34,195 bases of DNA from a bacterium (GTDB taxonomy: Bacteria > Cyanobacteriota > Vampirovibrionia > Gastranaerophilales > Gastranaerophilaceae). The notes beneath the pieces were generated by a model. It was not told where the DNA came from. It saw nothing but the letters and a program-made list of their open reading frames with translations, and ran no database searches. The position numbers were made by a program, and so were the translations under genes. Positions 23,345 to 26,747 of the stretch are shown piece by piece. The stretch lies in the NCBI GenBank assembly GCA_017633675.1, contig JAGBOW010000105.1:1-34195 (forward strand), read 5' to 3'. Numbering within the stretch: position 1 is the first letter of the stretch; the number at the start of each line of letters is the position of its first letter.

Positions 23345-23465
23345 TTCTGAAAGCAGGTTGAGGATAGTCGGATATTGGAGGAGGGTAAGAGGGTTAGAGG
23401 AATAGTCTTTTAACATAGATTTAAATGGCGATAGGACGATGGGGCGATAAGGCCGTATCGTTTAA
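23345..23465. repeat. Repeat cluster upstream of the MITE-like element
   Basis: From the minus strand: CGATACGGCCTTATCGCCCC and further octamer units (23427-23462), a TTTAAATCTATG spacer, then 8-nt steps CTCTAACC, CTCTTACC, CTCCTCCA. The layout copies that in nadB and nadC, in the opposite direction relative to the following gene. Confidence 0.75.
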
Positions 23466-23667
23466 TTTAAAAAATACACCATAAAAACACATCAAAATAA
23501 ATATTTTGATGTGTTTTGTTCTAACATATACATTTTACAATATTTTTCACGATTTGTCCAGTCCTCAAAATGATGTATTTTTCAATTTTTAGGGTGGTGA
23601 AAATCAGCACTATTCTTTGTTTTCCAGAATAATACATCATAATATTTATTATGGTGTATTTTTTAAA
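23466..23667. mobile_element. MITE-like element with 19-bp terminal inverted repeats
   Basis: TTTAAAAAATACACCATAA (23466-23484) is matched perfectly by its reverse complement at 23649-23667, giving a 202-bp non-coding element. It contains a 15-bp perfect hairpin (23484-23498 with 23503-23517) and an inner copy of a TIR-like sequence (AATACATCATAAT, 23626-23640), which folds with the right TIR into a hairpin with a T run. TTAA occurs at both tips and may be a target duplication. No transposase is in it. The pilin RBS starts a few bases after it. Confidence 0.65.
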
Positions 23668-23682
23668 AGAAAGGAAGGACAT

Positions 23683-24585
23683 ATGAAAAATTTGAAAACA
23701 CTTGTAGAATCACAGTTCCCTCTCCTTGGGAGAGGGTTAGGGAGAGGGGGAGATAAGAAATCCGCCTTCACTCTTGCGGAAGTATTAATTACACTTGGTG
23801 TAATCGGAGTTGTTGCATCGATAACAATATCTGCTTTAGTTAAACATTATCAAAAAATAACATGGACTAATCAACTGAAAACTAATTATTCTTTATTAAA
23901 TCAAGGATTTCAAAAAATGATGGCAGATGACGGGGTACAAAATATTGGAGATACAGAAGTATGGTTATCTATACCTCAAGTAAGACGTCCTTGGGGTACC
24001 ATAGAACCATTCATGGACAGTAGTAGTGATATTGAGATTTGTACTACTTTTTATAACAATTTAGGAAAATATTTCCAAATTTCTAAAATAGGAAAATTGT
24101 CTAATTATGAATATAAGAGAATTACTGGTTCATCATTAGGAATATATAATAATGAAGCTATTATACTTAATAACGGAGCTATAATTTTTAATTATGAATT
24201 TAGAATGCCTGAAATTCCCTCTATGGAATATTGTAAGCAAGTTCACCAACTGGGCGGACACATGTGCGCATATTCCGGAATCTTTGATATTGATATAAAC
24301 GGTCAAAAAGGACCAAATATTCTCGGTAGAGATATATTTCATTTCTATATATCAGAATTAGGCATTATCATACCAGATGGGGGGAATGATTATGCAATAT
24401 ATAGACAATGCAGTTATAGAAACTGTGATCCTAGCGAGTTAGGTATTTGGAAAACCAATAATTCGGAATATGAATTTTCTTTATGCGATTCTAAGGGTAG
24501 AGATTCCAGCAATCAAGCTCATCCAAATGGTTATGGTTGTTCCGGCTTACTTATCGACCAATTAAACTGGAAAATGAATTATTAG
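23683..24585 (+). CDS. Pseudopilin with a repeat-extended leader
   Basis: 300 residues; type IV/II pseudopilin. The hydrophobic helix AFTLAEVLITLGVIGVVASI follows a 28-residue leader, with Glu+5 after the cleaved A/F junction. The -1 residue is Ala rather than Gly. Prepilin peptidase should cut there. Inside the leader, codons for about residues 17-24 (PLLGRGLG) lie in the CCCTCTCC…GGGAGAGGG repeat. The other full pilin has only seven leader residues. The head contains paired Cys residues, IDINGQKGPNILGRDIF and a C-terminal GYGCSGLLIDQLNWKMNY. The ATG at 23683 follows AAGGAAGG; an upstream in-frame ATG (23617) lies inside the MITE-like element and is rejected. It ends in TAG, followed by a terminator. 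Role: minor pilin, secretion or DNA uptake. Confidence 0.85.
   Translation: MKNLKTLVESQFPLLGRGLGRGGDKKSAFTLAEVLITLGVIGVVASITISALVKHYQKITWTNQLKTNYSLLNQGFQKMMADDGVQNIGDTEVWLSIPQVRRPWGTIEPFMDSSSDIEICTTFYNNLGKYFQISKIGKLSNYEYKRITGSSLGIYNNEAIILNNGAIIFNYEFRMPEIPSMEYCKQVHQLGGHMCAYSGIFDIDINGQKGPNILGRDIFHFYISELGIIIPDGGNDYAIYRQCSYRNCDPSELGIWKTNNSEYEFSLCDSKGRDSSNQAHPNGYGCSGLLIDQLNWKMNY
23717..23752 (+). repeat. CCCTCTCCTTGGGAGAGGG repeat in the pilin leader
   Basis: TCCCTCTCC, then TTGGGAGAGGG and TTAGGGAGAGGGGG: a palindromic repeat read in frame as PLLGRGLGRGG between the start codon and the pilin cleavage site. Confidence 0.75.
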
Positions 24586-24646: not shown

Positions 24647-24734
24647 ATTTTAACAATACAGATTGCGCAACAAGTGCGCGATGACAAATAATTTTAAATT
24701 GATAACGACTTATACACTTATTTGTTTCTTCCCC

Positions 24735-24895
24735 GATACGGTCTTATCGCCCTATAGCCCTATCGTCCTATCGCCATTTAAAATGATAAAAACCCTCCGT
24801 CACTTCGTGCCACCTCCCTTAAAAGGGAGGCTTTTAGCTTTCTTATGCTCCTACGCTCTTATCCACCTATAATCCCTATCGCCACTTTAAATCAG
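24735..24895. repeat. Intergenic repeat cluster between the pilin and PHP genes
   Basis: The 385-nt gap (24586-24970) has no gene. It holds GATACGGTCTTATCGCCC with ATCGCCCT-type units (24735-24779), then CACCTCCC/GGGAGG palindrome (24809-24830), then further 8-nt steps (CTTATGCT, CCTACGCT, CTTATCCA). Frames that stay open here are only repeat-derived peptides. Confidence 0.8.
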
Positions 24896-25825: not shown

Positions 25826-26747
25826 TTTCCTCTTCCTTTTTATTTTTATCTGCTAACTCAAAAATTCTTCTTATTGAAACGGCATGCCCTGATACTTTAT
25901 CAATTTCGACCTCAACAGCATTAATTTGGACGACATTACCGTCAGCTACATCATAACGTTCGGGTACAACAGTCGTAAAGCGATTAACGGAAGTTTTGTA
26001 ATCCATACCGATTACACCATCTTTAGCTCCGCAAAAACCGGCATCTGTAATATATGCCATATTATTAATAATCTGTTCATCAGCGGTTTGAACATGTGTA
26101 TGAGTACCAAAAAACGCACTCACACACAATTCCGAACAAAATTTCGCAAAACAGACTTTTTCTGCTGTAGCTTCTGCGTGAAAATCCATAATCACAATCG
26201 GGGTAATATCTTTTAATCGTTTAATTTCTTCCGCAACGACCGTCCATTGAGAGTCTACAGGGCTCATAAATACCCTTCCCAGTGCATTTATAACCCCGAT
26301 TTTTGTACCGTCATGGAGTTCAAAAACACGACTTCCCTGACCTTGAGTATCCTCGGGGTAATTAAACGGGCGAATAAGTTTTTCCGCCCCGTTGATGTAG
26401 TTAAAAATTTCTTTTTTATCCCAGATATGGTTGCCTGAAGTCATACAGTCAATACCGTATTCTGATAAATCGTTATAATTTTTTTCGGTTAAACCAAAAC
26501 CGTGAGATGCATTTTCGACATTGGCAATTATAAAATTGAAAGTTGAAAGTTGAAAGTTGAAAATTAAGGGTTGACAGTCTATAGTTGAAAAACTTTCCAC
26601 TTTCAATTTTCCACTTTCCGCTGTTTGGAACTTTCCACTTTCAACTTTCAACTTTCCACTTAAATAATCCCGCACGGCAAAACGTCCAGGCCTGCCGACC
26701 AGATCACCAAAGAACAATATTTTTACTGTATTATTGTTATTTGCCAT
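25815..26747 (-). CDS. ymdB: YmdB-family metallophosphoesterase with repeat-derived insert
   Basis: 310 residues; relatives are about 260-265. The metal-binding motifs are kept: VKILFFGDLVGRPGR, IIANVENASHGFGL, CMTSGNHIWDKKEI, INALGRVFM, VIMDFHAEATAEKV, FFGTHTHVQTADE, ITDAGFCGAKDGVIGMDY. YmdB proteins hydrolyse 2',3'-cyclic nucleotides and affect biofilm and sporulation choices in Bacillus. Residues of about 30-71 (SGKLKVESGKF … STFN) are an insert of heptamer repeats between the first helix and the second strand. It is read through both inverted arms with no stop. The gene follows rny, as in Bacillus (ymdA-ymdB); no good SD exists, so it may depend on coupling. The gene overlaps PHP by 11 nt. 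Confidence 0.9.
   Translation of the reverse strand: MANNNNTVKILFFGDLVGRPGRFAVRDYLSGKLKVESGKFQTAESGKLKVESFSTIDCQPLIFNFQLSTFNFIIANVENASHGFGLTEKNYNDLSEYGIDCMTSGNHIWDKKEIFNYINGAEKLIRPFNYPEDTQGQGSRVFELHDGTKIGVINALGRVFMSPVDSQWTVVAEEIKRLKDITPIVIMDFHAEATAEKVCFAKFCSELCVSAFFGTHTHVQTADEQIINNMAYITDAGFCGAKDGVIGMDYKTSVNRFTTVVPERYDVADGNVVQINAVEVEIDKVSGHAVSIRRIFELADKNKKEEENER
26535..26664. repeat. Heptamer hairpin arrays inside ymdB
   Basis: Plus-strand blocks: TTGAAAG units (26536-26563), CTTTCCACTTTCAATTTTCC (26593-26619) and CTTTCCACTTTCAACTTTCA (26631-26662). They form inverted arms within the coding sequence. Confidence 0.9.

Follow-up and report, generated by a model that had tools for sequence, protein, structure and literature searches.

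The 202-bp element that precedes a type IV pilin-like gene at positions 23466–23667 of the window (the whole 34,195-nt stretch of DNA analysed here) is very probably an invertible promoter (inverton) comparable to fimS that belongs to a multi-locus family governing pilins. This reading draws on copy number, linkage to pilin genes, conservation of the promoter, the occurrence of both orientations, hybrid junction sites and linked recombinases, all of which were read directly from the sequence. The host belongs to the Gastranaerophilales, which are uncultured, non-photosynthetic relatives of cyanobacteria found in animal guts. The genome searched was the window's own assembly (1.91 Mb in 147 contigs, 89% complete). 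The features of the window on which the analysis turns are the following.

23421–23465, + strand: GATAGGG/GCGATAAGG repeat adjoining the element; about 19 of the 29 copies have this flank
23466–23667, no strand assigned: whole element within its originally annotated limits, comprising the outer arms and, between them, the putative invertible promoter (assembled in the OFF state)
23470–23483, + strand: outer half-site AAAAATACACCATA, adjoining the left site; present at 16 of 29 left junctions
23484–23517, + strand: predicted left recombination site, a near-palindrome with core ATCAAAA-TAAATA-TTTTGAT (23491–23510)
23532–23560, − strand: sigma-70-like promoter TGGACA-17-TAAAAT (10 of 12 positions as in the consensus), OFF because directed away from the pilin
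23570–23585, − strand: internal half-site AAAAATACATCAT, just upstream of the −35 hexamer; direct repeat of the right-end arm
23629–23662, − strand: predicted right recombination site, in inverted orientation, with core ATCATAA-TATTTA-TTATGGT (23636–23655)
23668–23678, + strand: likely ribosome-binding site AGAAAGGAAGG; AGAAAGGAA is common to the pilin genes behind the element
23683–24585, + strand: type IV pilin-like gene (300 aa) behind the switch; PF07963 above its cut-off
24729–24783, − strand: inverted copy of the GATAGGG/GCGATAAGG repeat, located 3′ of the pilin so that the cassette lies between the two repeats

The two ends of the element, TTTAAAAAATACACCATAA (23466–23484) and TTATGGTGTATTTTTTAAA (23649–23667), are perfect reverse complements over 19 bp. 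The terminal inverted repeats described in the first-pass annotation are thus real, as they exceed the longest perfect inverted repeat obtained at similar spacing when the whole window was shuffled 100 times with preservation of dinucleotides (18 bp, with most values at 12–14 bp). The hairpin described there as having 15 bp is also present, and corresponds to a 16-bp palindrome with a 2-nt centre at the left end (23484–23499/23502–23517). The TTAA given for both tips did not hold up, however: there is TTTAAA within the arms and a single adjacent TTAA on the left, and no target-site duplication. Moreover, the 19-bp outer arm is not the boundary of the unit. That is, the outer 18 bp, previously taken as the left terminal repeat, are absent in 13 of the 29 copies, and palindromic sites located just inside the outer arms are found at every assembled end. 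These sites share the core CAWAA-TAAATA-TTWTG, and at all assembled ends the two are inverted relative to each other and bound the segment between them, which is the arrangement of recombination sites expected of an inverton. Of the two half-sites, the internal one is present in the copies read as well as in relatives and is a possible accessory binding site for a recombinase or regulator; the outer one, which overlaps or directly follows the stop codon of a recombinase gene on contigs C99 and C106 and in relatives, could, as a guess, provide an accessory binding position for the recombinase or a regulator.

A promoter had been proposed to lie inside the element, and a good candidate is indeed found there, which in the window is directed away from the pilin. 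A consensus scan would be insufficient to identify it, given that six sites were found against 4.3 expected in this A+T-rich region. What makes the candidate convincing is its conservation across copies: the TGGACA/TAAAAT hexamer pair, or a one-base variant of it, occurs with the same 17-bp spacing in all copies matched by a motif scan. The element ends directly 5′ of the pilin ribosome-binding site, as previously noted, with AGAAAGGAAGG coming next and the pilin ATG at 23683, and the repeat cluster reported on its left side is a GATAGGGCGATAAGG-type repeat. Inverted GATAGGGCGATA-type repeats bracket the whole pilin cassette (23421–23465 and 24729–24783), and a repeat of this type also follows some other pilins.

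The first-pass annotation had staked its reading on the existence of further copies in the genome, and many were found. The 202-bp query matched 65 places in the assembly, 24 of which were longer than 90 bp at 89–100% identity, a count that may include the window's own copy. Flanking sequences could be read for 27 left and 15 right junctions, and contigs C98 and C120 each contribute one more left junction at an end, giving a family of about 29 loci in the genome. Many contigs break off inside the element, as would be expected for a repeat. Contig C98 (L224) ends with AGATCGG inside the element, probably a leftover sequencing adapter. All 15 right junctions lead into AGAAAGGAA...ATG followed by a prepilin leader (MKKIKKAFTLAEVLI or MKNLKT...SAFTLAEVLI), and the DNA of the switch and leader is almost constant among loci. 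The left junctions vary, with a GATAGGGCGATAAGACCTTATCGTTTAAT-type repeat at about 19 of the 29 and no such repeat at the others. No close copy of the element was found in other species among 33 genomes of the genus and 288 of the family; within that sample, the expanded pilin-linked form is present only in the window's genome.

A high copy number, terminal inverted repeats and a non-coding centre are what a miniature inverted-repeat transposable element (MITE) would display, and the element had originally been annotated as MITE-like. According to this explanation, a MITE or other non-autonomous transposon would by chance lie upstream of pilins and supply a promoter. The junctions do not resemble those of a transposon, which would be expected to have varied insertion sites, a target-site duplication and constant ends. 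Here it is the right flank that is constant, all 15 assembled right ends joining the same pilin ribosome-binding site and leader, while the left boundary is variable owing to the missing outer arms, and there is no duplication. Furthermore, the interior is found inverted between constant flanks. We therefore regard a transposon origin as extremely improbable. The earlier suggestion that a mobile unit brings switching to a surface protein is plausible as regards switching and fails as regards the mobile unit.

The evidence for inversion comes from comparisons between loci and between genomes, the window locus itself being seen in the OFF orientation only, with its promoter directed away from the pilin. 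The interior is reversed (ON) at two loci, on contigs C106 and C92. C106 shares with C99 the order recombinase, element and pilin, and the flanks of the two loci are 85% and 82% identical; their 133-bp interiors are only 59% identical as read and 94% identical after reverse-complementing one of them, so that the promoter points toward the pilin in C106 (ON) and away from it in C99 (OFF). In C92, a reversed interior is joined to the standard left flank. Contig C88 consists of a flank, the element and the reverse complement of the same flank, that is, an OFF and an ON junction of one flank. The ON junction at C88 and C92 reads ATCAAAATAAATATTATGAT, an exact hybrid of the left outer arm and the right inner arm, which is precisely what a crossover in the core predicts, whereas ATCAAA(A/T)TAAATATTTTGAT is found at the OFF junctions of the main family. 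An inversion was also observed at an orthologous locus in relatives, which carries a recombinase gene on the left and the same gene (MNLEWKAAELDEF...) on the right, when genome G015 (L089) is compared with Candidatus Scatousia excrementipullorum (L137). There, the left flank is 90.5% identical and the right flank 100% identical over 300 bp, and the interior is 61% identical as read and 84.5% identical when reversed. Both orientations between constant flanks, as expected of an inverton, are therefore seen in the C106/C99 and L089/L137 comparisons and in C92 and C88. All orientations come from assemblies alone. The assembly of the family is fragmentary, C106 has perfect arms of 35 bp, across which a misassembly is possible in principle, and C88 is a fold-back contig end. 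An assembly error is least plausible for the L089/L137 pair, whose perfect arms of about 15 bp are shorter than the k-mers usually used in assembly.

The same observations bear on two explanations that do without active switching. In the first one, the element would be a fixed pilin leader, i.e. a conserved 5′ regulatory or RNA-structure region that has been copied by duplication with the pilin genes and not recombined. Invariable linkage to pilins implies that the copies spread together with them, and RNA folding of the element region is much stronger than that of shuffled sequences (z −5.8). The folding, though, is a by-product of the DNA inverted repeats, and in most copies the only good internal promoter is directed away from the pilin. 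Together with the reversed interiors in C106, C92, C88 and an orthologue, this makes a fixed leader highly improbable. In the second one, the elements would be former switches, most of them locked OFF, and would form a silent archive used mainly for homologous recombination between pilin cassettes. As assembled, 24 of the 27 left junctions are OFF, and the cassettes share the DNA before the gene while encoding mature pilins that are 25–56% identical to that of the window. An OFF bias would also be expected of live switches, since an assembler reports the majority form; in addition, no damage is apparent in the sites, the promoter or the active-site residues of the recombinases, and the assembly itself contains ON junctions. 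We consider such an archive of locked copies very unlikely.

If the family consists of working invertons, a recombinase should be encoded in the genome. A serine (Mpi/Hin-type) invertase system was rejected: no match to PF00239 was found in the 89%-complete assembly, while 10 of 14 control genomes had one. The assembly encodes eight tyrosine recombinases, namely two of 286 and 302 aa, which are Xer-like by size, and six of 180–193 aa. The small ones reach PF00589 (Phage_integrase) with 90 bits against a cut-off of 27.1, and the R-K-H-R-H-Y residues are kept in an alignment with relatives. They score 43 and 38 bits with the FimB and FimE subfamily models (NF007370 and NF007371), for which the cut-offs are 222 and 221, and are thus FimB-like in size and setting and outside the FimB/FimE subfamily. 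On contigs C59, C99 and C106, the small recombinase gene lies just upstream of an element and pilin. Those on C81 and C91 sit among phage-like genes; yet a phage origin of the element was rejected, as the exact pattern of the promoter region is absent from viral contigs. The small recombinase gene on C44 is followed by its own pair of similar palindromes (L072 1920–2862, minus strand; GCACCA...TTATGGTGC) and then by a gene for a 561-aa protein with a signal-peptide-like start and no Pfam match, which suggests that this locus is probably a separate phase-variable surface gene. Close relatives of the small recombinase are found in 21 of 33 genomes of the genus, and the similar switches in relatives precede other, different genes wherever neighbourhoods were read. 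In one relative (L113 3001–4307), two different small tyrosine recombinase genes flank a 163-bp segment that has inverted repeats of 20 bp, and hence one of the two enzymes may switch the other.

Taking these elements together, the following mechanism can be proposed. A small tyrosine recombinase, encoded at another place in the genome (the best candidates being the C59, C99 and C106 genes that each lie near a copy), would recombine the TAAATA-centred sites at both ends of the element and flip the roughly 145 bp between them. In the ON state, the internal promoter would read across the right site into the pilin gene, producing a leader of about 60 nt; in the OFF state, which is that of the window as assembled, it would read away from the pilin. 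A few small recombinases could in this way place a promoter before each pilin, or remove it, by local inversion. Catalysis by the small recombinases, transcription from the promoter, ON/OFF expression of the pilins and their display at the surface are each predicted from sequence. A cell would probably express only a few of the surface-fibre proteins, the others staying off, and because the mature parts of the switched pilins differ, the pilin set would vary from cell to cell within a population. As the approximately 29 loci carry nearly the same recombination sites, recombination between loci is possible as well, and might swap the pilin behind a promoter or rearrange the chromosome. That the system both switches and shuffles the repertoire is conceivable, though unlikely; in that case, the role of the internal and outer half-sites would be to favour exchange within the local pair or the OFF state.

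The basic mechanism is already known. In E. coli, fimS with FimB/FimE, and ipuS and hyxS in uropathogenic strains, are short invertible promoter segments before surface-structure genes, and fimS-type switches are flipped by a tyrosine recombinase of about 200 aa, usually encoded next to the switch (PMC6083910). The present family likewise combines a putative invertible promoter upstream of surface-protein genes with small tyrosine recombinases nearby. Unlike these systems, which comprise few switches and control chaperone-usher fimbriae, it has about 29 near-identical copies and type IV pilin-like targets; its sites are near-palindromic with a TAAATA centre, and its recombinases fall far below the FimB/FimE model cut-offs. 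Bacteroides fragilis offers a multi-locus parallel, in which the master invertase Mpi acts on 13 regions and Tsr19 flips promoters both locally and at a distance (PMC4747536). The Mpi/Tsr regulons resemble the pilin family in having many scattered surface-gene promoters with a common recombination site and a small number of recombinases. Mpi, however, is a serine recombinase, a type not found here, and these regulons serve capsule and outer-membrane genes. In the pilin family, near-identity between loci extends over the whole element, which moves together with the start of the pilin gene. Moraxella bovis varies its pilin by DNA inversion (cited in PMC11868660); there, the pilin genes themselves are inverted, rather than a promoter as proposed here. 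Invertons of gut bacteria in defined communities also lie near surface and adhesion genes (PMC11892184), as do those described here, which differ in being a single sequence family expanded together with the pilin repertoire; the text of that study makes no mention of Melainabacteria or pili. In the paper collection searched, which lacks most subscription titles, we found no article treating inverton, tyrosine recombinase and pilin together and no description of such a switch system in Melainabacteria/Gastranaerophilales, an earlier mention in large inverton surveys being possible; the literature match for Melainabacteria and phase variation concerns flagellins. What appears to be new is the scale, the target and the cassette structure; the host lineage and the near-identity of whole elements also set the family apart from the systems above.

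The pilin targets themselves are diverse. The window pilin carries the prepilin N-terminal methylation motif (PF07963, above cut-off), and about 98 pilin-like genes with a prepilin motif are present in the 1.9-Mb genome, compared with 9–150 per genome across the genus (32 relatives). Roughly 15–30% of these 98 or so genes may be under a switch, a range given by the 15 directly linked genes and an upper estimate of about 29 switches; no such site lies upstream of most of the other pilin genes that were examined. The pilins of C106 (L071 2878–3972), C65 (L018 161–1198) and C59 (L074 88–729) have a common C-terminal domain that is variable near its end, and one of the three has a sub-threshold Pfam match to Lcl_C. 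A diversity-generating retroelement acting on the variable pilin ends was rejected, as the sole reverse transcriptase (C146) has no matching template repeat nearby. Prepilin leaders with in-frame small-repeat insertions just before the cleavage site were observed in the window (23718–23752; CCCTCTCCTTGGGAGAGGGTTAGGGAGAGGGGG, read as LLGRGLGRGG) and elsewhere (FTLAEGATHVETLKDNRKLAFTLAEV; L194–L196, L207, L209, L211 and L214), as if small repeats settled in the part of the prepilin that is discarded. For the very large pilin-like repertoires of the genus, the switch family offers a testable answer, for one species, as to how they are used: if the proposal is true, part of the repertoire would be mostly silent behind a family of flip-switches, much like the Bacteroides capsules. 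Metagenome reads could test the switching without cultivation. Other inverted repeats with perfect arms of at least 13 bp precede 3 of the 72 remaining pilins in this genome and none of 16 in relatives, against 0.4 and 0.05 expected from mononucleotide shuffling, in a test that misses the known family, whose perfect arms are short; the three hits look unlike that family. Finally, the window contains a second strong inverted repeat (20 bp; 26538–26656), made up of GTTGAAAGTTGAAAG-type repeats at the 5′ end of a YmdB-like gene.
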